Assembly: GCF_030244015.1 (NCBI RefSeq)
Contig: NZ_JASSYX010000002.1
Location: 868,001-932,000, forward strand
DNA: 64,000 nucleotides
Direction: 5' to 3'
Origin: Pedobacter ginsengisoli
Lineage (GTDB): Bacteria; Bacteroidota; Bacteroidia; Sphingobacteriales; Sphingobacteriaceae
In this document: in pieces, positions 9,475-59,786 of the stretch
How the letters are laid out: the number at the start of each line of letters is the position of its first letter
Numbering within the stretch: position 1 is the first letter of the stretch
Program-made: the position numbers and the translations under genes
The notes under the pieces: generated by a model
Databases searched by the model: none
Told to the model about the DNA's origin: nothing
Seen by the model: only the letters and a program-made list of their open reading frames with translations

Positions 9475-9553
9475 AGAGGCTGTCCGGCCTTTGATGTGAC
9501 CCCAAAAGTTGGACAAAAGCTTTTGGGGTCACATCACTTTTTGGACAGCCTCT
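9475..9553. repeat. Nested palindrome with IS-end-like core, probable terminator
   Basis: Outer arms AGAGGCTGTCC (9475-9485) and GGACAGCCTCT (9543-9553) enclose inner arms GATGTGACCCCAAAAG (9493-9508) and CTTTTGGGGTCACATC (9520-9535). A T-run follows directly on the plus strand, so it can serve as a terminator after the DinB gene. The inner sequence TGACCCCAAAAGTTGGACA looks like the terminal repeat of IS3-type elements, so a MITE-like or solo-end origin is possible. No transposase remnant is present. Confidence 0.6.
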
Positions 9554-38806: not shown

Positions 38807-39994
38807 ATGGAAGACTTTAACGCTGCGCAGGAAGAACTGCTTGATAAATATAAAAAAGGGATCTGTACACCTCAGGAGAAGGCTGCTGTAGAAAACTGGT
38901 ACAATCAGCAGTCGGAAATGACCTCAGATGATCTTGATGAACCCGACTATGACCAAACCCGAAAAGAAATATGGACTGCGCTCCAGTCCAGGAGAATTAA
39001 GGCGCTAAACGAAAACAAAGACAAATCAGTTATCGGGTTAAAAAGACATTATCTAAGTATTGCCGCCTCTCTCCTTATTGTCGTGGCAGCCGGATTGTTC
39101 TTCCTGATGTATAAAAGACAGGAGCAGCCTCTCAAAACAAGTGAACAGGCCAGCATAGCCAGGCCTGGCGGAAATAAGGCATACCTAACACTGTCCAACG
39201 GAAAACGGATCGTCTTAAATGATACCCTGAGCGGTACACTGGCCGTTCATGCCGGTGTAAAGATCACCAAAACCGCGAACGGACAGATTGCCTGTGAAGT
39301 GATTCCGGGAAAAGCAGGTGACCCGCTCAAATACAATACACTTGAAGCTCCTAAAGGCGGGCAATACCAGATCACACTCGTAGACGGAACCAAAATCTGG
39401 TTAAATGCTGCTTCAGTTCTAAGATATCCGTCTCAATTTGCGGGAAAGGAAAGAAAGGTAGAACTCACAGGGGAAGCCTATTTCGAAGTGGCTAAGTCCA
39501 AAACCAAGTCTTTTGTGGTTGTTTCCAAACAGCAGGAAGTACAAGTCCTTGGTACCCATTTTAACATCAATGCTTATGAGGACGAAGCGGGTATTAAGAC
39601 CACTCTTGTTGAAGGCAGTGTTAAGATAACCGCTTCCTCCTCCTCTCAAAAACGCGAAGCAGCGATGGAACTGGATGATGTAATTCTAAAACCGGGTCAG
39701 CAATCAACTGTAAAAGACAACAGAATCAACATTAAAGAGGTTGATACAGAAGAAGCCATCGCCTGGAAAAACGGCTATTTTACCTTTGAAAATGATAATC
39801 TGGAAATGATCATGCGTAAGCTGGAGCGCTGGTACGACGTAGAAGTCACCTACACAGGCCGGATCAGCAATAAAGTAAAAGTAATGGGTTCCATTTCCAG
39901 AAATACTGAATTGCCCGAACTGCTGAAAATGCTCGAAAGCACTGATAAATTCAAATTTAAAACAGAAGGAAGGAGGATCACTGTTATGCTGTAA
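38807..39994 (+). CDS. FecR-family anti-sigma factor (locus B)
   Basis: 395 residues. The cytoplasmic part (about 1-80) ends at a membrane helix near 84-102 (HYLSIAASLLIVVAAGLFFL), then come the periplasmic FecR domain (TLVDGTKIWLNAASVLRYPS, VELTGEAYFEVAKSKTKSFV, VQVLGTHFNINAYEDEAGIK) and a DUF4974 domain at the C-terminus (NLEMIMRKLERWYDVEVTYT). It is a standard SusCD-linked anti-sigma factor. Compared with its counterpart in locus C (413 residues), it lacks the three palindrome-encoded insertions. It is followed by an intergenic hairpin and then susC. Confidence 0.93.
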   Translation: MEDFNAAQEELLDKYKKGICTPQEKAAVENWYNQQSEMTSDDLDEPDYDQTRKEIWTALQSRRIKALNENKDKSVIGLKRHYLSIAASLLIVVAAGLFFLMYKRQEQPLKTSEQASIARPGGNKAYLTLSNGKRIVLNDTLSGTLAVHAGVKITKTANGQIACEVIPGKAGDPLKYNTLEAPKGGQYQITLVDGTKIWLNAASVLRYPSQFAGKERKVELTGEAYFEVAKSKTKSFVVVSKQQEVQVLGTHFNINAYEDEAGIKTTLVEGSVKITASSSSQKREAAMELDDVILKPGQQSTVKDNRINIKEVDTEEAIAWKNGYFTFENDNLEMIMRKLERWYDVEVTYTGRISNKVKVMGSISRNTELPELLKMLESTDKFKFKTEGRRITVML

Positions 39995-48467: not shown

Positions 48468-48486
48468 ATTTTTGCTGTAAAGATAC

Positions 48487-48900
48487 AAAAAAAGGTATTC
48501 TTCTCTAAGGCTGGACCTTTTACTCTGAAAAAGAGCAAAAATCCTATGCCTTTTCGAAGAACAACCTTTTTTTGTTATTGGGCGCAAAAACTGGGAGAAT
48601 AAAAAGGAAAGAAGGACAAAAAAAAATGTATTCTTCTCTAAGGCTGGACCTTTTGCTCTGAAAAAGAGCAAAAATCCTATGCCTTTTCGAAGAACAACCT
48701 TTTTTTGTTATTGGGCGCAAAAACTGGGAGAATAAAAAGGAAAGAAGGACAAAAAAAGGTATTCTTCTCTAAGGCTGGACCTTTTACTCTGAAAAAGAGC
48801 AAAAATCCTATGCCTTTTCGAAGAACAACCTTTTTTTGTTATTGGGCGCAAAAACTGGGGGAATAAAAAGGAAAGAAGGACAAAAACTGGGAGAATAAAA
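48487..48900. repeat. Three tandem ~132-bp repeats, each with a long imperfect hairpin, next to rnpB
   Basis: Units begin near 48487, 48618 and 48751 (spacing about 131-133), and a partial fourth copy (AAAACTGGGAGAATAAAA) ends near 48900. Each unit has an 87-bp imperfect hairpin: AAAAAAAGGT pairs with ACCTTTTTTT, TTCTTC with GAAGAA, AAGGC with GCCTT, GGA with TCC, TTTT with AAAA and CTCT with AGAG, closed by a GAAAA loop. In the second unit the arm reads TTTTGCTCT and pairs perfectly with AGAGCAAAA, while units 1 and 3 have a mismatch. A 45-base spacer follows each hairpin. No protein-coding frame is supported. Confidence 0.85.
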
Positions 48901-51370: not shown

Positions 51371-52171
51371 TTATGAATTAAGGCCAAGCCTGATTGCGGC
51401 TTCCACAGGACAATATTGTTCCTTGCCTTCTATTTCAAAATCACTTCTGAGCAGCAACGGGGGTTGGGCCAGAAAACGGGGTTCTGTTCCCTGGTGCCGT
51501 TGTGCCCTGTGCACCAGAAAAGGATGGCAGAGGTATACTGTCCCTGCCTTTCCGGTGGCGTATATTTCTTTTTTTACTGGCAATTCAGCCGCTTTCTCAG
51601 CGAGATCAGGCAGCTTTTCTGCTAATTCCATAAATGACAGCCCGGCATCTCCTGCAGGCTTTAACAGCCTTGCGACGTCGAGATGCGATCCCTTTAAGAT
51701 TATTGTAGGGGCATCCAGTTCAGTGACATCGGAAAACAGAAAAAGCATCAGCAAGGCCCGGCCTTTTGATTTTATGTTGATACGTGCGCCGAAATAGTCA
51801 TTTGGATCGGCTCCGGCAAAACCGGCATCTACATGCCAGCCGGTATCTCCTGAATCAACCCCAGAGGGGAAGCGGACTGGAAAAGCACCCATGCTCATGC
51901 AGGGAATCCATTTGCATGTACCCGCAAGCTGATCGAATGCCCCTTGAAGGACTGTTGTATTGGCGGCTTTGGTGAATGGTTCCTGTGTATACATACCCAG
52001 CCAGACCACGGGCTGTGTCCAGGTGCTGCTGTCATTGGGGTCTGCAGGAATGTCTTTCCACAGAATATTTCTTGCTTCGCTGGCAAGTTCCGTAGAAAAG
52101 GCATTGTCAATGCGGACGAAGCCGTCCGTAATAAAGGATTGTATTTGTTCCTGATTTAAGATTTCGTTCAT
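51371..52171 (-). CDS. Phytanoyl-CoA dioxygenase (PhyH) family protein
   Basis: 266 residues. It begins EQIQSFITDGFVRIDNAFST, the usual PhyH start, and has the iron ligands His-x-Asp in DTGWHVDAGFAGADPNDY (about residue 115) and the distal His in YLCHPFLVHRAQRHQGTEPR (about 218), with an Arg that binds 2-oxoglutarate in the same stretch. Such enzymes hydroxylate small substrates using Fe(II), 2-oxoglutarate and oxygen; the substrate here cannot be named. No biosynthetic genes are beside it. It is a single gene. Confidence 0.88.
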   Translation of the reverse strand: MNEILNQEQIQSFITDGFVRIDNAFSTELASEARNILWKDIPADPNDSSTWTQPVVWLGMYTQEPFTKAANTTVLQGAFDQLAGTCKWIPCMSMGAFPVRFPSGVDSGDTGWHVDAGFAGADPNDYFGARINIKSKGRALLMLFLFSDVTELDAPTIILKGSHLDVARLLKPAGDAGLSFMELAEKLPDLAEKAAELPVKKEIYATGKAGTVYLCHPFLVHRAQRHQGTEPRFLAQPPLLLRSDFEIEGKEQYCPVEAAIRLGLNS

Positions 52172-52637
52172 AATGATTAATATAAATGTTCAGACAATAG
52201 ATAGTTTATTGCCCTGGCGGGCAGTAAATCAAAATACTGATGGTCAGAAGACCGGGGAAATTTATATTAAAGCATTAATGTCATTCTCATTGTGCAAATA
52301 TATTGATTAATCATATTTATGATTAGGCTTTGTGAATTTTTATATAAGACTTTCTGCGGGAATGTGTCATGACTCTCTTCGGACAACAAGGGAACTGCTA
52401 CGCATCTGCGAAGCATCTGCTTAGGGGTTGGTTCGCTTGTGGGGCGACCAAAGCCCTAAGGAGGAGTTAGAAAGCTTCTTCATAGATGTGACGTTGAGCA
52501 GGGAGAGAACTTATATTGATTTTAGCAGACAGCGGTAGCGGATATGATTATTTTGTTTGGTGGTTAACGTTGCTGTTGAAATATTATATAAGTTTGTTTG
52601 ATTTTAACTAAATTAGTTCAAGGGAAAACTTAACATC
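52172..52637. other. Gene-free interval with a 41-base hairpin and a promoter
   Basis: This 466-base gap lies between the PhyH-type gene and sigma factor C. It holds a hairpin at 52420-52460 (CTTAGGG pairs with CCCTAAG; GGTTCGC with GCGACC) and a promoter-like site at 52570-52596. The stretch from about 52380 to 52460 is richer in G and C than its surroundings and also has the near repeats GCATCTGCG and GCATCTGCT. No coding frame, tRNA or known RNA family was recognised. A small RNA or repeat remnant is possible. Confidence 0.5.
52570..52596 (+). promoter_or_regulatory. Candidate promoter for locus C
   Basis: TTG at 52570-52572, a 16-base spacer and TAAGTTTG at 52589-52596, a full match to TAnnTTTG. 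The sigma factor start lies 41 bases beyond. The spacer is one base shorter than usual, so the confidence is moderate. Confidence 0.45.
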
Positions 52638-53204
52638 ATGGCTGCTTATAGTGCATATTCTGATCAGGAACTGACTGTTTTGTTAAAGCAGGGCGATCAA
52701 TACGCTTATGCCGAGATCTATGGCCGCTATGTTAAAGGACTGGTTCGTTTTGCAGAAACTAAATTGTATAGCCTTGAAGACGCACGTGACCTGATCCAGG
52801 ATGTTTTTGTGGGATTGTGGAGTGATCGGGATTCACTCGAAATAAATGAAAGCCTAAAGTCGTACCTGTTTGGGATCGTACGTTTTCAAATCATCAACAG
52901 AATAAGGAAAAATATCGTCCGTGAAGATTATGCAGCAAAGCTAAGGGCGCTTTCGCCAGCTTACGTATCACTGGAAGAAGAATTGGAATTAAAAGAACTG
53001 GAAAGCAACATCAAAGCCAAATTGAGTGAACTGCCTGAAAAAACGCAGGCTATTTTTCAGAAAAGCAGGGAACAGCACCTCAGTATTAAGGAAATTGCCG
53101 AAGAACTCAACTTATCGGAGCAGACAGTAAAAAACCAGATCAGTATAGCCTTAAAGTACCTTAAGAAGTCTTTTTCTGCTTTCTTTTTTACCATCTTCTG
53201 GTAG
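52638..53204 (+). CDS. ECF RNA polymerase sigma factor (locus C)
   Basis: 188 residues. Region 2 reads YAEIYGRYVKGLVRFAETKL with DARDLIQDVFVGLWSDRD, and region 4 LSELPEKTQAIFQKSREQHL with EIAEELNLSEQTVKNQISIA. It is a FecI-like factor of the SusCD-linked type. It is similar in size and layout to the factor of locus B and heads sigma, FecR, SusC, SusD and TlpA. The C-terminal LKKSFSAFFFTIFW tail is hydrophobic. A plausible promoter lies 41 bases before the start. Confidence 0.93.
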   Translation: MAAYSAYSDQELTVLLKQGDQYAYAEIYGRYVKGLVRFAETKLYSLEDARDLIQDVFVGLWSDRDSLEINESLKSYLFGIVRFQIINRIRKNIVREDYAAKLRALSPAYVSLEEELELKELESNIKAKLSELPEKTQAIFQKSREQHLSIKEIAEELNLSEQTVKNQISIALKYLKKSFSAFFFTIFW

Positions 53205-53299
53205 GTTTTGGCGCTGATGTTATATTCCTGTTAAAAAAACATTAAAAAATTTCGGTACTATTTGTTCTGTCAAACTACTACCGTATTAGAAAGCAAAAA

Positions 53300-54541
53300 A
53301 TGAGTACAAAGCACATCATAGAACTATTGGCCCGATATGAAAAGGGAGAATGCACAGAGGCAGAAAAAGCATTGGTTGAACAGTGGTTTGAGGCGCATGG
53401 TGCTGCTGATTCCAGCTTTGAGCAGATGGATAGTGATGAACAGCAAAAATGGGTAGCCGCTTTATTTAAGGATATCAATCAACAAAATGAAATTAAAGCA
53501 ATTCCACCTGTAAAACGTTTATGGCCACGTATCGCGGTAGCCGCTGCCGCGGTGGCCGTAATGACTTTGGGAGTGTGGCTTTACTATGCATCATCTATAA
53601 ACGGTCGTCATCCTGACGCAGGTCAGGACCCCGGAAGCGCACAGTATGCCAACGACATAGCACCAGGTAAGAATGGTGCGACGATTACTTTGGGTAATGG
53701 AAGGGTGATCCAATTGAGCGATGCGAAGAGCGGGGTTGTAGTTGGAAATGGAAAGATATTCTATTCGTCATTGCGAGGAGGGGATCCTTCGCTTCGCTCA
53801 GGACAGGCTGCGCAACCCCATGATGAGATTGCTTCGATTCCTCGCAATGACGGGGTGGGAGAGAATAGCATGATGCTAACAGCGAGCACCACCCGCGGGC
53901 AGACGTATCAGTTTACTTTACCAGATGGTACGAAGGTCTGGCTCAACGCAGATTCAAAAATATCGTTCCCTTCACAATTTTCTGGAAGAGAACGCAAAAT
54001 ATTGTTAGAAGGTGAGGCTTATTTTGAAGTGTCAAAAGATAAAGCACATCCTTTCATTGTACAAAGCGATGGGCAGCAGGTGACTGTACTTGGTACGCAT
54101 TTTAACATTAATGCTTACCGGGGCGAAGGCAATATTAAAACGACTTTGCTGGAAGGTTCAGTACGTTTAACTAACCACTCTGCAGTAAACGGTCGTCATC
54201 CTGAACTTGTTTTAGGACCCCGCACCAGTGAAATACTACTTAAACCCAACCAGCAAGCCACAAACACCGGCGCTGCTATAAAAGTAGAAGCCGTAAACGC
54301 AGCCGATGCTATAGCCTGGAAAAGCGGCAGGTTTGCCTTTAACAGAGCCAGCCTGGAAGCTGTATTGCACGAAATGAGCAGATGGTATAACGTAGACGTT
54401 AAATACCCTGATGGCATACCTGATGAACAGTTTACGGGGAACATAAACCGGAACAATACCCTGGCCCAGGCGCTTGATATATTGAAGTTTATGAAAGTGA
54501 AATTTGAAATACAGGGCCGCACCATAGTTGTAAAGAAATAA
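53300..54541 (+). CDS. FecR-family anti-sigma factor carrying three palindrome-encoded insertions (locus C)
   Basis: 413 residues: cytoplasmic part, membrane helix near 75-95 (IAVAAAAVAVMTLGVWLYYA), FecR domain (TLPDGTKVWLNADSKISFPS, ILLEGEAYFEVSKDKAHPFI, VTVLGTHFNINAYRGEGNIK) and DUF4974 domain (SLEAVLHEMSRWYNVDVKYP). Three stretches have no match in the locus B protein and come from repeat DNA read in frame: INGRHPDAGQDPG near residues 100-112, a segment near 156-185 containing SSLRGGDPSLRSGQAAQPHD and SIPRNDGV, and VNGRHPELVLGPR near 296-308. All fall in linkers and the frame stays open, so the protein is probably functional. Confidence 0.92.
   Translation: MSTKHIIELLARYEKGECTEAEKALVEQWFEAHGAADSSFEQMDSDEQQKWVAALFKDINQQNEIKAIPPVKRLWPRIAVAAAAVAVMTLGVWLYYASSINGRHPDAGQDPGSAQYANDIAPGKNGATITLGNGRVIQLSDAKSGVVVGNGKIFYSSLRGGDPSLRSGQAAQPHDEIASIPRNDGVGENSMMLTASTTRGQTYQFTLPDGTKVWLNADSKISFPSQFSGRERKILLEGEAYFEVSKDKAHPFIVQSDGQQVTVLGTHFNINAYRGEGNIKTTLLEGSVRLTNHSAVNGRHPELVLGPRTSEILLKPNQQATNTGAAIKVEAVNAADAIAWKSGRFAFNRASLEAVLHEMSRWYNVDVKYPDGIPDEQFTGNINRNNTLAQALDILKFMKVKFEIQGRTIVVKK
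53599..53634 (+). repeat. In-frame repeat copy 1 inside fecR (locus C)
   Basis: TAAACGGTCGTCATCCTGA is followed by a perfect 7-bp inverted repeat (TCCTGAC, loop GCAG, GTCAGGA) and then CCCCGG. The first 19 bases recur exactly at 54187-54222. It encodes an Asn-Gly-Arg-His-Pro-containing insertion just after the membrane helix. Confidence 0.75.
53766..53852 (+). repeat. In-frame long palindrome (CGTCATTGCGAGGA arms) inside fecR (locus C)
   Basis: CGTCATTGCGAGGA (53766-53779) and TCCTCGCAATGACG (53839-53852) are perfect 14-bp inverted arms enclosing 59 bases. The 87-bp element keeps the reading frame and contributes about 29 residues to the periplasmic region before the FecR domain. Elements with these arms are known as dispersed intergenic repeats in several bacteria; here one lies in a gene. 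Confidence 0.85.
54187..54222 (+). repeat. In-frame repeat copy 2 inside fecR (locus C)
   Basis: It shares TAAACGGTCGTCATCCTGA and then GGACCCCG with the copy at 53599-53634; the middle has drifted (ACTTGTTTTA instead of CGCAGGTCA). It encodes Val-Asn-Gly-Arg-His-Pro-Glu and lies between the FecR domain and the DUF4974 domain. Confidence 0.7.
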
Positions 54542-54648
54542 AAAAGACATCATCCCTTTAACTAACCATATAAACCAAAAACTAACCCAAAAATGAGAAC
54601 AGAAAAACGAATATAAAGGAATGATGAACAGGGGGCTTTAAATAAGAA

Positions 54649-54678
54649 GCCGGATAGTAGTTCGAAGTACCATCCGGC
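54649..54678 (+). promoter_or_regulatory. Intergenic hairpin between fecR and susC (locus C)
   Basis: GCCGGAT (54649-54655) pairs with ATCCGGC (54672-54678), and GTA with TAC inside, around GTTCGAAG. It occupies the same position as the hairpin at 40044-40069 in locus B, although the sequences differ. The 231-base gap also has a tiny frame near 54592 (ATGAGAACAGAAAAACGA then a stop), too short to count as a gene. Confidence 0.6.
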
Positions 54679-54772
54679 GGTCGATTGAGCTAACCTTTCC
54701 CTAAGGCCTAAGCCGACAGGGATAAAAACAATTGCTAGAACAATATTTTATCAACTCAACCAAAGTAAAGTT

Positions 54773-57700
54773 ATGCATTTATTTGCTCATAACCCAGGTG
54801 TACGTTTATTGCGTATACCGTCTAAACTGCTGTTAATAATGAGGCTAACCACTTTCATTTTAATGATTGCCCTGGCCCAGGTAAGTGCCAGAGGATTCGG
54901 ACAGAAAATAACCCTGAATGAAATTAACGCGCCTATTGAAAAAATTCTACAATCTATAAAAAGCCAATCCGACTATGGTTTTATTTACAATGTAAAAGAC
55001 CTGAACAACCACAAAGTAACACTTAAACTTAAGGATGCTACCATTGAAGAAGCCGTAAAAAGCCTGACCAAGGACTTACAGCTGAGCTACAAAATTGTAA
55101 ACAAAGATATTGTGTTGACCCGCGAAGAGCCTTCCCTACTGGACAAACTTTTCAACGTCATTTCGAACCTCGTGAGAGATCTAACCGTGCGCGGGGTAGT
55201 AAAAGATCAGGATGGGAAACCACTTCCAAACGCAAGTATCCGGGTAAAAGGGAAAAGTGCTGTCATCAATACTAACCAAAACGGGGAGTTTGAAATCAGG
55301 AATGTGGCAGAAGATGCTGTGCTGTTAGTTGGCTATGTAGGTTATAAAACTTTGGAGATACCGGTTAGGGGGGCGGTGATTCCATTGGAGATTAAGCTGG
55401 AAATGCAAACAGGGGAACTGGAAGAAGTTAATGTAACTTATAACACTGGATACCAGACCTTGCCGAAAGAAAGAGCAACAGGATCTTTTACAATAATCGA
55501 CAATAAAACATTAAACCAACAGATAGGTTTAAATATCTTGAAAAGACTGGATGGGGTAACCAATGGTGTGTTATTTAATACAAACCGAGGTAATTCTAAT
55601 CCCCAAAATCAAACGAAAATATCAATTAGGGGCTTAAGTACAATAAATGGGCCTTTAGATCCACTGATTGTTCTGGATAATTTTATCTATGAAGGAGATA
55701 TCAATAACATCAACCCTAATGATATAGAAAATATTACGGTTTTAAAAGATGCAGCGGCTGCCTCAATATGGGGTGCAAGGGCAGGTAATGGTGTAATTGT
55801 AATTACCACAAAAAAAGGCAGGTTCAGTCAGAAAACCAGGATTGATTTTAATACAAATGTTTTAATAACTGAACGACCGGACTTGTTTTCGGTTCCCCAA
55901 ATGCAAGTTAAAGATTATATAGAAATGGAAGAATTTCTATTTAACAAAGGATATTTTAATAACCAGATCAATGGAAATAATTACAGGTCCCTCATTCCAT
56001 CTGTAGAAATCTTTTTAAAGAGAAGAAATGGTCTGATTTCTAAATTAGATTCTGCCAATCAAATTGATGTTTTAAAACAAATAGATACCAGAAAAGAATA
56101 CAATAAAAGCTTTACACGCAATGAAATTGCGCAGCAATATTCATTAGCTATCAGGGGTGGCAGTGAAAAGAACGCTTATACCGCTTCAGTGAATTATGAT
56201 AAGAATCGAAATTATTTAAATGCGGATTATGAAAAGATCAATTTGAGTGTAAACAATACTTATAAGCCAACTAAAAAGCTTGAGGTAAATTTATCCCTTT
56301 ACTATACCAATAGCGAAGGTAAGAGCGGTGCACCAGATTTTCAGATATTGCAAACTATAGCTTCAAGAAATGTTTCCTATTTAAAATTCGAAGATGAGGG
56401 AGGCAGTTCGCTACCGGTTACCAATTTATACCGCAACGCCTATTTAGACACCGCTGGGGCGGGAAAGCTATTGAATTGGAGATATTATCCTTTGGATGAT
56501 TACAAGCATAATTATCAAACTGCCAAAATAAATGAGATGATAGGAAATATTGGTTTAACCTATACCATCTTTAAACCTTTCAGTGTTTCAGTAAAATATC
56601 AATATCAGCGCCAAGACACCAAAGGTGAAGGTTTGGCTGACGAAGAAAGTTTTTATACCAGAAATAATATAAATCTGTTTAGTCAGCTAAACCGAACAAC
56701 AGGCATAGTCAAATATAATGTACCCATGGGTGGAATATTAGCGTTGTCCAATTCGGTGTTAAGTGCACACAATATTAGGGGACAGGCAAATTTAAATCAA
56801 AACTGGAAAAACCATGCTATCTATGGAATTATAGGCGCCGAAATACGTGAAATGGAGAATACGGGAAATAGTTCAACAATTTATGGGTATAAAGGCTTAC
56901 CATTGATTTATACAAATGTTGACTACATAAATACTTACAGAACATTTGTGGATGGCAGTTTTCAATCAGTACCTGGTGGCCCCAGTCTATCCAGCGGCAC
57001 TAACCGATTTGTTTCCTTATTCTCTAATTTCTCTTATGTACTCCTAGATAAATATACAGTATCCGCAAGTGCCAGAAAAGATGGTTCAAATATTCTTGGC
57101 GTAAACACCAATGACAAATGGAAACCTTTATGGTCTGCAGGTTTGAGTTGGGATATTACCAAAGAAAAATTTTACAAACTAAATTGGCTACCCACCTTTA
57201 AAATAAGAACCACTTTAGGAAGCAGCGGAAATGTAGATTTGAGCCGGTCTGCTTTGCCGATTTCATTTAACATCTCTCCTTCGGCTAACTCCGCATTTCC
57301 GAGTACAAGGATAACCACTTTAAACAACCCCGAGCTGCGATGGGAGCAATCGAAACAATTCAATTTTGGATTTGATTTTGCTTTAAAAAATGCGATAATT
57401 TCTGGCGGTGTAGAATTTTATATAAAAAAGGGGACAGACTTATATGGGCCTACTCCTTTTGATTATACCGCTTGGGGCGGAGGCAAGGAAATCACAAAAA
57501 ATGTTGCCAACATGAAAGGACATGGAATAGATGCCATCATAAAAAGTGTTAACATGAATCGTTCACTTAGATGGGAAACAACGTTCCTACTTAACTATAA
57601 CAATAGTAAAACAACTGCTTATTTTATTTCAAGTGCGCAAACAGGTACAAGCTTATTTGGTGCTGGCAGGGCAATTTCACCAGTTATTGGTAAACCACTT

Positions 57701-58336
57701 TATGCAATTGCGGCCTATAAATGGGCAGGCTTGGATATTGAAGGTAATCCTCAGGGATTTTTAAATGGAGAAAAAAGTAAAAATTATATGGCTCTGGCAG
57801 CCGAAATATCAAAAAATGGGATTGCCAGTGAAAGCGCTGTTTTTATCGGTTCCACCGTTCCGGTAACTTTTGGCTCAATAGGCAACAGTTTTTCATGGAA
57901 AGGTGTATTTATGGACTTTAATATTGTGTATAAATTTGGCTACTATTTTAAACGACCTGCTTTGCAGTACAGCGCACTTGCAGAGATGGGTGCCGGTCAT
58001 ATAGATTATGAATCCAGATGGTTAAAGCCAGGAGATGAAACTAGAACAAATATCCCTTCGTTTCAATATCCGATAGATAGCCGCCGGGATGCTTTCTACG
58101 CAGCGTCGGAAATCAATGTGCTAAAGGCCGATCACATCAGATTGCAATTTGTAAATGTCGGTTATACATTTAGCAGACCCACAAAAAGAGAGCTTTTTAG
58201 TCAGCTACAAGCGTATGTCAACATTTCCAATATAGGAATATTATGGCGTTCCAACAAAGATAATCTGGATCCGGACTACCCTGGTTTAACTGTACCATCA
58301 AAAGGATTTGCAATAGGCTTGAAGGGTAACTTCTAA
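54773..58336 (+). CDS. SusC/RagA-family TonB-linked receptor with STN domain (locus C)
   Basis: 1187 residues. The signal peptide (LLLIMRLTTFILMIALAQVSA) is followed by an STN domain (about 48-118, INAPIEKILQSIKSQSDYGF), a carboxypeptidase-regulatory-like domain (about 140-215), a plug (NILKRLDGVTNGVLFNTNRG, NITVLKDAAAASIWGARAGN) and the barrel, ending KGFAIGLKGNF. As in locus B it should form a lidded importer with SusD and signal through FecR. From here to about 61108 the DNA becomes more A+T-rich than in the rest of the window. The next gene begins 13 bases after the stop. Confidence 0.94.
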   Translation: MHLFAHNPGVRLLRIPSKLLLIMRLTTFILMIALAQVSARGFGQKITLNEINAPIEKILQSIKSQSDYGFIYNVKDLNNHKVTLKLKDATIEEAVKSLTKDLQLSYKIVNKDIVLTREEPSLLDKLFNVISNLVRDLTVRGVVKDQDGKPLPNASIRVKGKSAVINTNQNGEFEIRNVAEDAVLLVGYVGYKTLEIPVRGAVIPLEIKLEMQTGELEEVNVTYNTGYQTLPKERATGSFTIIDNKTLNQQIGLNILKRLDGVTNGVLFNTNRGNSNPQNQTKISIRGLSTINGPLDPLIVLDNFIYEGDINNINPNDIENITVLKDAAAASIWGARAGNGVIVITTKKGRFSQKTRIDFNTNVLITERPDLFSVPQMQVKDYIEMEEFLFNKGYFNNQINGNNYRSLIPSVEIFLKRRNGLISKLDSANQIDVLKQIDTRKEYNKSFTRNEIAQQYSLAIRGGSEKNAYTASVNYDKNRNYLNADYEKINLSVNNTYKPTKKLEVNLSLYYTNSEGKSGAPDFQILQTIASRNVSYLKFEDEGGSSLPVTNLYRNAYLDTAGAGKLLNWRYYPLDDYKHNYQTAKINEMIGNIGLTYTIFKPFSVSVKYQYQRQDTKGEGLADEESFYTRNNINLFSQLNRTTGIVKYNVPMGGILALSNSVLSAHNIRGQANLNQNWKNHAIYGIIGAEIREMENTGNSSTIYGYKGLPLIYTNVDYINTYRTFVDGSFQSVPGGPSLSSGTNRFVSLFSNFSYVLLDKYTVSASARKDGSNILGVNTNDKWKPLWSAGLSWDITKEKFYKLNWLPTFKIRTTLGSSGNVDLSRSALPISFNISPSANSAFPSTRITTLNNPELRWEQSKQFNFGFDFALKNAIISGGVEFYIKKGTDLYGPTPFDYTAWGGGKEITKNVANMKGHGIDAIIKSVNMNRSLRWETTFLLNYNNSKTTAYFISSAQTGTSLFGAGRAISPVIGKPLYAIAAYKWAGLDIEGNPQGFLNGEKSKNYMALAAEISKNGIASESAVFIGSTVPVTFGSIGNSFSWKGVFMDFNIVYKFGYYFKRPALQYSALAEMGAGHIDYESRWLKPGDETRTNIPSFQYPIDSRRDAFYAASEINVLKADHIRLQFVNVGYTFSRPTKRELFSQLQAYVNISNIGILWRSNKDNLDPDYPGLTVPSKGFAIGLKGNF

Positions 58337-58349
58337 TTGCTTTAGGATT

Positions 58350-59786
58350 ATGAAAATAAATTTTAATAATGTGGTTATGATATTAAAAAACGACTTTATG
58401 AAACTTAACAACTATTACTCCCTGCCAAAAATATTCCAGATCTTTTTATTTTCTTTTCTTGTAACTATCTGCTGCTCTTGTAAAAAGTACCTGGATAAAA
58501 CACCGAATGATAAACTTTCTGTTCCTTCTTCACTGGAAGATTTGCAGCGTTTGATGGACGATGCAGTTAGCATGAATAATGCAACTGTAAATATGGGCGA
58601 GGCATCTTCAGATGACTATTTTTGGACAAATGATATGTATGATGCTTTGGATTTGATAGACCGGCATGCTTATACCTGGATATATGACGATTATAATTTT
58701 GGTAGTGATTGGTCCTATTCCTACCTGCCCGTTTTCAATTCAAACTTTTGCATTGAAAGTATTCAAAAAATTCAAAAGACAGGATTAAATAAAACCATGT
58801 GGGACAATGTGATAGGCTCAGCATTATTTTTTAGGGCTTATCATTTTTATAATCTTGCTGGGGTTTATGGAAAAGCATACGATGTGAATTCTTATGAAAA
58901 AGATTTAGGCATTGTATTGAGGTTAAATTCTGATTTTAATATCCCTTCTTTAAGAGCATCTATTAAAGACACGTATGCCCAGATTATTAAGGATGCGGAA
59001 GAGTCTATAGGATATTTGCCAGAACAACCTCAGCATGCGCTACGCCCCTCAAAACCGGCTGCGTACGGACTGCTTGCGCGCTGTTACCTTTCCATGCGCT
59101 TATACGATGATGCCTATAAATATGCCGACCTCTGCCTTAAACTTAAAAGTAGTTTGATAAATTTTAATGGAGATCCGGACATCAGCATTAATGCAAATGC
59201 CCCCTTTACAAAGTTCAATAAAGAAACCATTTTCTATACAAACACCTCAGGCTTCAGAAAGCTTTATGCCGCAACGTTTGCATTGGCAGACACAAATTTA
59301 TATGTGTCTTTTAAACCTGGTGACTTAAGGAAAGCGGCTTACTTTGCACCTTCTGGTAAGTATTTTAAGTTTAAAGGTAACTATACAGGCAGTGCAAGCC
59401 TTTATTTTTCAGGAATAGCGGTTGATGAAATGCTGCTGATACGAGCGGAGTGTGCAGCAAGGGCGGGAAAGTTGACCGAAGCTATGGCTGACCTAAATTT
59501 GCTTTTAATATCCAGATGGGATAAAAATACACTATATGTGCCAGTATCAGCAGGTAATGCCAAAGAGGCAACAGACATTATTCTGGCAGAAAGAAGAAAG
59601 GAATTGCTCTTTAGATCCATCAGATGGACGGATATTAAACGATTGAATAAGGAAAATTATAATATTATCCCCAAAAGAGTAGTAAAGGGAACAGCATATA
59701 CGCTTGAACCTAATGAAGGAAGATATGCTATGCCTTTGCCTAAAGATATAATTGATATAACCGGTATGCCCCAAAATCAGTATTAA
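58350..59786 (+). CDS. SusD/RagB-family surface lipoprotein (locus C)
   Basis: 478 residues from the ATG at 58350, or 462 from the ATG at 58398, which gives a better lipoprotein signal (NYYSLPKIFQIFLFSFLVTI ending CCSCKKYLD). SusD helical blocks include ASSDDYFWTNDMYDALDLID, IGSALFFRAYHFYNLAGVYG, YGLLARCYLSMRLYDDAYKY and the C-terminal AERRKELLFRSIRWTDIKRL. It acts with the SusC protein upstream to capture a substrate at the surface. The length is somewhat shorter than that of the locus B protein. The TlpA-type gene follows after 11 bases, so all three are one operon. Confidence 0.93.
   Translation: MKINFNNVVMILKNDFMKLNNYYSLPKIFQIFLFSFLVTICCSCKKYLDKTPNDKLSVPSSLEDLQRLMDDAVSMNNATVNMGEASSDDYFWTNDMYDALDLIDRHAYTWIYDDYNFGSDWSYSYLPVFNSNFCIESIQKIQKTGLNKTMWDNVIGSALFFRAYHFYNLAGVYGKAYDVNSYEKDLGIVLRLNSDFNIPSLRASIKDTYAQIIKDAEESIGYLPEQPQHALRPSKPAAYGLLARCYLSMRLYDDAYKYADLCLKLKSSLINFNGDPDISINANAPFTKFNKETIFYTNTSGFRKLYAATFALADTNLYVSFKPGDLRKAAYFAPSGKYFKFKGNYTGSASLYFSGIAVDEMLLIRAECAARAGKLTEAMADLNLLLISRWDKNTLYVPVSAGNAKEATDIILAERRKELLFRSIRWTDIKRLNKENYNIIPKRVVKGTAYTLEPNEGRYAMPLPKDIIDITGMPQNQY

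Follow-up and report, generated by a model that had tools for sequence, protein, structure and literature searches.

How does a protein-coding gene come to hold several palindromic repeats inside one unbroken reading frame, and what carries such repeats from place to place? The question is raised by a 64,000-nucleotide stretch of the bacterium Pedobacter ginsengisoli (G000:C2:868001-932000, here called the window), which was analysed together with the rest of its genome (G000; 4.83 Mb in 7 contigs) and with comparison genomes of the same genus, Pedobacter (G001-G035). Within the window lies a gene for a FecR-type anti-sigma factor of 413 amino acids (aa), and three palindromes are read through as part of it. 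We propose that these are copies of CGTC-tagged repetitive extragenic palindromes (REPs) that entered the linkers of this and related FecR genes, and we put forward a small GIY-YIG nuclease as their possible mover. The insertion account as a whole seems to us likely, the mover being its weakest step.

Three palindromes and their dispersal

The palindromes, numbered sites 1 to 3 (Table 1), had been described in a sequence-only reading as an 87-bp element with perfect 14-nt inverted arms and a second repeat in two copies sharing 19 bases, all placed in linkers between domains and none breaking the frame. Each part of this description was seen again. The arm of the 87-bp element is GTCATTGCGAGGA; the second repeat, TAAACGGTCGTCATCCTGA, occurs at 53598-53616 and 54186-54204 with 19 of 19 bases identical, its true starts lying one base earlier than had been noted; the frame is open across all three palindromes; and their position relative to the membrane helix, the FecR domain and the FecR_C domain (which we take to be the renamed DUF4974) agrees with the earlier placement. 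The second repeat begins a CGTCATCCTGAA...TTCAGGAT hairpin, with a 7-bp stem and a 4-nt loop at site 1 and a 7-bp stem and a 5-nt loop at site 3. The score of 21 at site 1 compares with 9.7 for the 99% point of the codon-shuffled control. Folded as single-stranded DNA, the site-2 element reaches -19 kcal/mol (z = -3.06), and 2 of 200 shuffles fold equally well. An Rfam scan of window positions 52000-56000 gave no match.

With at most one mismatch, the site-2 arm is found at 76 places genome-wide, against 3 for a backwards control pattern, and because of this repetition the palindromes are not due to chance; a search of the genome for the arms, which the sequence-only reading had called for, has thus found them well beyond this gene. 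Elements of this type, called A, were sorted by eye from 45 clusters of arms, namely the window copy and 44 outside the window. Not counted as elements were the doubtful L072 and six solitary arms within ordinary genes (L065, L066, L078, L087, L098 and L101). The remaining 38 loci comprise 30 that are intergenic (L064 and L069 being counted here despite overlapping open frames of 237 and 135 aa), seven in FecR paralogues and one in a CHAP-domain gene. FecR genes make up about 0.4% of the genome and host 7 of the 8 intragenic A elements, a bias in which the paralogues are not independent of one another. By our own count, both arms stand head to head, each with at most one mismatch, at 25 of the 38 loci. 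No common target sequence at the insertion points was seen by eye.

The CHAP-domain gene (L089, 1459-2190, minus strand), the sole host outside the FecR family that was accepted, has its A-type palindrome in frame ahead of the domain; the CHAP match is barely above the Pfam cut-off, and a second repeat-like stretch was noticed by eye further on. In another genome (G016:C3:517995-518654), five A palindromes at an exact spacing of 159 bases suggest a tandem array that includes the REP.

The second repeat, type B, is rarer: its consensus, with up to 3 mismatches, is found at 9 places in G000 (control, 0): FecR genes hold four of them, another four form the ends of two nuclease elements, and one lies elsewhere. 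A third type of palindrome, marked by AGAGATCTCTTGAATAG, occupies 12 places (control, 1), four of them in three FecR genes.

That all this is ordinary ancestral protein sequence, or a set of chance palindromes, is hardly credible. FecR linkers do vary in length, but the genome-wide repetition refutes the idea: the same DNA is read as intergenic at 30 loci, codon-shuffled controls speak against it, and the 87-bp site-2 insert is missing from all 29 FecR relatives that were aligned (29 of 80 named FecR loci), so that the shared ancestral residues which the sequence-only reading had allowed for were not found.

The palindromes resemble a known class. CGTC-tagged REPs are described as having a CGTC tag, a stem of 8-9 bp, a loop of 4-5 nt and a 3-bp tail, as forming head-to-head pairs, some of them intragenic, and as occurring in five phyla, Bacteroidetes among them (PMC3733652). 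Types A, B and E/F all start with CGTC. The B consensus, with its 8-bp stem, 5-nt loop and 3-nt tail, fits the published dimensions exactly; the window copies of B, with 7-bp stems and loops of 4 and 5 nt, and type A, with a 5-bp stem and a 10-nt loop, have stems shorter than the published 8-9 bp. On these likenesses of sequence the window palindromes are filed as intragenic CGTC-tagged REPs, with A as a divergent type. Like the published REPs they are dispersed and mostly intergenic, with some copies intragenic; unlike them, their intragenic copies are concentrated in one family of paralogous regulators, whereas the published hosts are varied, with genes of DNA synthesis and repair prominent (PMC3733652). 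The comparison with the palindromic elements of Rickettsia (RPEs) made in the sequence-only reading proves apt, as RPE-6 and RPE-4 of R. conorii, likewise palindromes in frame inside genes, are classed in the same source as CGTC-1 and CGTC-4 (PMC3733652); phylum and host genes differ, and the kinship rests on that classification.

Linkers of the FecR family

The window gene is one of many. Matches to FecR number 17 in G000 and 19 in G022, of which 13 and 16, respectively, were read. In-frame palindromes well above the codon-shuffled threshold are present in 10 of the 13 G000 paralogues, and none of the FecR matches listed for this genome has an internal stop. The three without an accepted element are L106, L110 and L109, the last being the 'locus B' gene of the window, in which the repeats had been said to be lacking and in which none was found. 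Matches just over the threshold in ordinary FecR sequence (for example LSDAK in four genes, L106 included) were left uncounted. In the alignment the elements occupy three linkers, one just after the membrane helix, one preceding the FecR domain and one separating it from FecR_C, with further positions just before the helix in L090 (and, by eye, L099) and inside the FecR domain of L090.

Decorated FecR genes, with the same types in the same linkers, also occur in four more Pedobacter genomes: L297 and L298 in G002, 4 of the 16 genes read in G022, L320 in G026, and L032 and L300 in G032. For G026 the search gave a single B-type place, which lies within a FecR gene. In-frame palindromes are hence a recurrent pattern of the FecR family in G000 and these four genomes, and not a peculiarity of one gene. 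The best FecR matches of other relatives are, by eye, mostly without such an insert. A scan of the 80 named FecR loci left 23 without an open reading frame by motif; among the other 57, eleven have 1-2 palindrome-like matches. Two genes from this wider set deserve mention: the FecR of Pedobacter panaciterrae strain O48 (L157) has six palindrome-like matches (GTCATCTCGA and relatives) around codons 270-311 and is probably decorated, and that of Pedobacter sp. MC2016-24 (L111, 3001-4185) carries an additional GGDPGLRRDERKG stretch in its site-3 linker that may be a further type of palindrome.

An AlphaFold model of the window protein was built on the 29-relative alignment. Its mean predicted local distance difference test (pLDDT) value is 79.8, with 89-96 for the FecR and FecR_C blocks, and values below 50 are confined to residues 35-37, 63-71, 102-104 and 106-115 (the last two at site 1), 159-169 (site 2), and 296-300 and 303-307 (site 3); the low values at the inserts are weak evidence and lend our account little, as residues without aligned relatives score low anyway.

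Where B copies stand in plus orientation in FecR genes, their translation is an RHPE-type peptide; A copies give SLRG...TKQS or EIAS...PRND. The B palindrome has a second open frame; the frame may have been filtered for hydrophilic peptides, or the copies may be of common descent, both being possible.

How the decoration came to be held in common is suggested by block-wise similarity. For the decorated clade, 11 FecR genes counting L106, pairwise DNA identity averages 0.40 over the N-terminal block, rises to 0.78 in the middle block ahead of site 2, and falls again to 0.69 across the FecR domain and 0.54 at the C-terminal end. L073 and L091 are 91-98% identical around their common site-2 element and less so on either side, and the window gene shares with L090 one 45-nt window of 100% identity, within the inner segment listed in Table 1. 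We infer that the decorated middle block was traded between paralogues by ectopic recombination or conversion, although stronger constraint on this block would account for part of the pattern. Some insertions predate the exchange, because paralogues hold them in common within blocks that look exchanged. Of the earlier suggestion of recent mobile insertions, the part concerning dispersed repeats in frame is well supported; that they are recent is at most conjectural, some copies being older than the exchange of blocks.

These similarities also lend themselves to another explanation, in which the decorated genes go back to one or a few old insertions spread by duplication and conversion, new insertion being rare and FecR not a preferred target. 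It would account for a middle block far more alike among paralogues than the ends, and for the near-identical site-2 element of L073 and L091 with identity dropping on both sides. However, the same linker holds different types depending on the paralogue (site 2 has A, F or no element, site 3 has B, F or A), and in other species, too, B or A occupies these linkers in different FecR genes. We regard this explanation as possible, while on the whole not expecting it to be right.

A quite improbable alternative, in our judgement, is that the inserts are kept for a function, be it tether length, a protease-sensitive loop or recombination sites that shuffle FecR domains. Their concentration in one regulator family, the use of the hydrophilic RHPE-type frame by plus-oriented B copies in spite of the second open frame, and the coincidence of the decorated block with the exchanged one would all be in keeping with it. 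Yet insert length and sequence vary freely among paralogues, undecorated genes exist both in G000 and in other species, and tolerance together with frame filtering accounts for the same facts.

GIY-YIG nuclease genes between CGTC palindromes

The search for a mover starts from an absence in the literature. In the survey of CGTC REPs, no REP-associated tyrosine transposase (RAYT) or other IS200 transposase is reported to be flanked by CGTC units, and their REPtrons, it is suggested, may have disappeared (PMC3733652). A Y1 transposase was considered as the mover and rejected, PF01797 having 0 matches in G000 (E<=0.001) in a search whose control was positive in 5 of 14 genomes.

Four of the nine B-type places point elsewhere. 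At C1:1487515-1487924 (L073) and C3:65016-65425 (L090) they enclose, in inverted orientation, a 98-aa GIY-YIG gene; a FecR gene follows each of the two elements, at a distance of 139 bp in one case and 155 bp in the other. Both are nested in a larger common sequence with inverted ends of its own (in L090, CTTGTGAATTTTCTTTTTTAATGGCACAC). A third GIY-YIG gene in G000 is bounded by an E-type palindrome. The proteins have a complete GIY-YIG domain: PF01541 is matched with E 6e-17, and Y8, Y19, G21, R29, H33, E67 and N86 are invariant in 15 sequences, core residues whose role is presumably catalytic. In this they are like GIY-YIG homing endonucleases and other small stand-alone GIY-YIG proteins; they differ in their length of about 98 aa, with 98 aa for the B-type and 99 aa for the E/F-type protein, in consisting of the domain alone, and in having genes with a CGTC palindrome to either side, flanks that 20 UvrC/DnaQ-type genes do not have.

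The flanks were compared more widely after a search of 37 genomes for PF01541, which supplied stand-alone genes and UvrC/DnaQ-type controls. The comparison covers 300 bp on each side of 62 distinct stand-alone genes (20 of a subfamily termed RGG and 42 other) and of the 20 controls; L200 and L223 (short flanks), re-fetched duplicates and long proteins missed by the seed profile were dropped. An inverted-repeat score of at least 13 is reached by 20/20 RGG-type genes, 10/42 other stand-alone genes and 0/20 controls; for mismatched flank pairs (n=490) the 95% point is 12, the 99% point 20 and the maximum 29, values raised by common families. The order CGTCA upstream and TGACG downstream is found in 18/20, 2/42 and 0/20, respectively (Fisher P 6e-14), where the P value is indicative only, the RGG subfamily having been defined after its flanks had been seen, and this must be set against the case made here. 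Perfect inverted ends of 26-30 nt surround the gene in L204 (type B), L215 (G020, type A) and L237 (G000, CGTCATCTCGACC type). The same terminal inverted repeats are found on enzyme elements and on short copies: B in G000, with two GIY-YIG elements and the FecR copies, and A in G020, with the ends of the L215 element and 70 A places.

Nuclease and palindrome also vary together. On a tree of 20 RGG nucleases, 19 of them labelled with a palindrome type by a rule of our own, the four types need 3 changes, the minimum, where the mean for shuffled labels is 10.1 and none of 200 shuffles comes down to 3; the clades of types E and H are starred, those of A (83/79) and B (83/86) less firm. A palindromes are present in 16 of 23 Pedobacter genomes, and an RGG nuclease (E<1e-25) in 12 of these 16 and in 0 of the 7 others (Fisher P 0.0013, with shared ancestry not removed).

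Beyond the genus, the B-type nuclease is matched in 79 of 198 Bacteroidota genomes (G000 included), and in 33 records of a plasmid collection, of which 14 were read. Six of the 14 have hairpins that pass on both sides, from Shinella, Rhizobium, Sphingobium, Azospirillum, Neorhizobium and Neisseria gonorrhoeae. The palindrome at the N. gonorrhoeae locus looks like dRS3. In the CGTC survey dRS3 is equated with CGTC-1 (PMC3733652). The N. gonorrhoeae replicon (L358, NZ_CP119142.1), at 2.17 Mb, is chromosome-sized and filed as a plasmid. On Azospirillum lipoferum plasmid AZO_p3 (L356) the GIY-YIG gene with its CGTC palindromes lies between sufB and sufC, and the locus of Shinella sp. PSBB067 (L364) is, by eye, also beside a sufC-like gene. 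A single site, flanked in Sphingobium by fnrL and the gene of a response regulator, could be compared with and without the nuclease gene: seven records match the whole query including the nuclease region, and among four without the nuclease, L366 and L367 have a solo palindrome of the same type, L368 and L369 other sequence. Such a solo palindrome would fit what internal deletion, or in the other direction solo insertion, leaves behind. In Shinella and Sinorhizobium, divergence or rearrangement was too great for the ends to be placed.

The mechanism that we propose combines these elements. CGTC REPs of types A and B would have multiplied in the P. ginsengisoli genome by means of an autonomous element consisting of a CGTC palindrome, the small stand-alone GIY-YIG gene and an inverted CGTC palindrome, the nuclease nicking or cutting matching palindromes, which are then copied to new places. 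The common head-to-head pairs of REPs would be internally deleted, non-autonomous derivatives moved in trans. The flexible linkers of FecR proteins may tolerate extra hydrophilic residues, so that frame-preserving copies survive there; the same linkers of many paralogues would be hit repeatedly by palindromes of different types, and the decorated middle block would then be copied among paralogues by ectopic recombination. Dispersal, position in frame, recurrence at the same linkers, absence from the aligned relatives and block-wise similarity can be read from the sequences; that tolerance lets the copies survive, and that recombination is how they came to be shared, is what we infer from them.

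The arrangement recalls the REPtrons of GTAG REPs, in which a short RAYT gene lies between REPs that are also dispersed genome-wide, and here, too, the type of REP follows the enzyme tree; the gene, however, is that of a GIY-YIG nuclease and not of a Y1 tyrosine transposase. In its widest form the proposal is of a GIY-YIG 'CGTC REPtron', the nuclease being the missing mobiliser of CGTC REPs in Bacteroidota, Alphaproteobacteria and Neisseria and the REPs its internally deleted copies, which would drive change in coding sequences, a repeatedly re-decorated anti-sigma family included. On the sequence evidence we rate its chances as about even. Among the matches listed in a literature search, no title joins GIY-YIG genes and REPs, and no paper was found that combines GIY-YIG with 'repetitive extragenic palindromic' (a search with subscription papers and preprints outside its scope); the main text of the RepRanger (PMC12306157) and Bradyrhizobium REP (PMC5082802) papers, as far as available, is without GIY-YIG.

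Several observations weigh against the account. Target-site duplications were not seen by eye in the flanks of the element loci of G000. Decorated FecR genes number 0/11 in G007, 0/5 in G017 and 0/3 in G020 among the genes read in these REP-rich genomes (one weak match, in L308, was taken as chance), a total of 0/19 that also rules out decoration as a simple effect of REP load. A palindromes are present without an RGG nuclease in G007, G010 and G021, and with only a piece of one, at a contig edge, in G015, and G002 has B palindromes but no RGG nuclease; in G000 itself no A-type nuclease was found, though A is the commonest of the palindromes sought there. Some RGG genes (in G004, G011 and G020) have stop codons. 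The tags also stand the other way round, with TGACG on the upstream and CGTCA on the downstream side; this order occurs in 14/20 RGG, 2/42 other and 0/20 control loci, and because it is so frequent many RGG genes must lie among several palindromes, with outer ends that are not always clear. Support for the link across Bacteroidota is weaker: the inverted-repeat threshold is reached by 11 of 30 loci (two already in the RGG/stand-alone set), and a more stringent test for hairpins is passed by 11 of 44 loci (plasmid records included), by 6 of 20 in the RGG set and by 0 of 440 shuffles, a test that misses many loci and does not give a rate.

In a rival reading the GIY-YIG genes are passengers: nucleases of the homing type would recognise CGTC REPs that are already there and insert themselves among them, the REPs owing their spread to a different process. 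Homing is typical of GIY-YIG nucleases, A or B palindromes occur in several genomes with no RGG nuclease, and many RGG genes stand amid several palindromes in both orientations. Other REPs are reported to serve as targets of insertion sequences (PMC1525189). We nevertheless consider passengers unlikely. Palindrome type tracks the nuclease tree without extra change, as expected if the nuclease has its own ends, and L204, L215 and L237 have perfect inverted ends around the gene; the Sphingobium site, with the gene-bearing form or the palindrome alone, fits internal deletion and insertion alike.

The locus and its significance

The order of genes around the window FecR, with a sigma factor of the extracytoplasmic function (ECF) type, FecR, a TonB-dependent receptor and a SusD-like protein (Table 1), is that of a unit for signalling at the cell surface, linked to a nutrient receptor, and the ECF sigma factor is presumed from this order to be the partner of the 413-aa FecR protein.

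Table 1. Genes and repeat elements of the window discussed in the text (window positions)
Feature	Position	Strand	Evidence
ECF sigma factor gene, 188 aa	52638..53204	+	Pfam Sigma70_r2, Sigma70_r4_2, Sigma70_ECF
FecR-type anti-sigma gene, 413 aa, intact frame	53300..54541	+	Pfam FecR residues 195-289, FecR_C 344-411
Site 1, B-type CGTC palindrome, read as RHPDAGQDP, directly after membrane helix	53606..53632	+	hairpin; score 21
Site 2, A-type head-to-head element, perfect 14-nt arms, read as SLRGG...EIASIPRND, ahead of FecR domain	53766..53852	+	arm pair; fold
Inner segment GGATCCTTCGCTTCGCTCAGGACAGG within site-2 element, also in paralogue L090	53782..53807	+	sequence match
Site 3, B-type CGTC palindrome, read as RHPELVLG, between FecR and FecR_C domains	54194..54220	+	hairpin; sequence scan
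TonB-dependent receptor with STN domain, SusC-like	54773..58336	+	Pfam STN, CarbopepD_reg_2, Plug
SusD-like gene	58350..59786	+	Pfam SusD-like_3, SusD_RagB
'Locus B' FecR paralogue L109, undecorated, internal comparison	38834..39985 (G000:C2:906834-907985)	+	no element found

Two further repeats were noticed in the window: three tandem copies at 48485-48886, with spacings of 133 and 131 nt and 98-99% identity, and an inverted repeat at 9475-9553 with 34-nt arms, 82% complementary, and 11 nt between them.

For the biology of REPs, a nuclease that appears to co-evolve with the palindromes bounding it makes the question of what moves CGTC REPs one that can be tested with a single small gene. If the proposal is true, a population of REPs can be driven by an enzyme that is a nuclease and is not known to act as a transposase. 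For the FecR family, the pattern is one of repeats that would be rewriting the linkers of regulators encoded beside nutrient receptors, with paralogues trading the decorated block among themselves, and the decorated set may serve as a natural series on how much linker change an anti-sigma factor tolerates.

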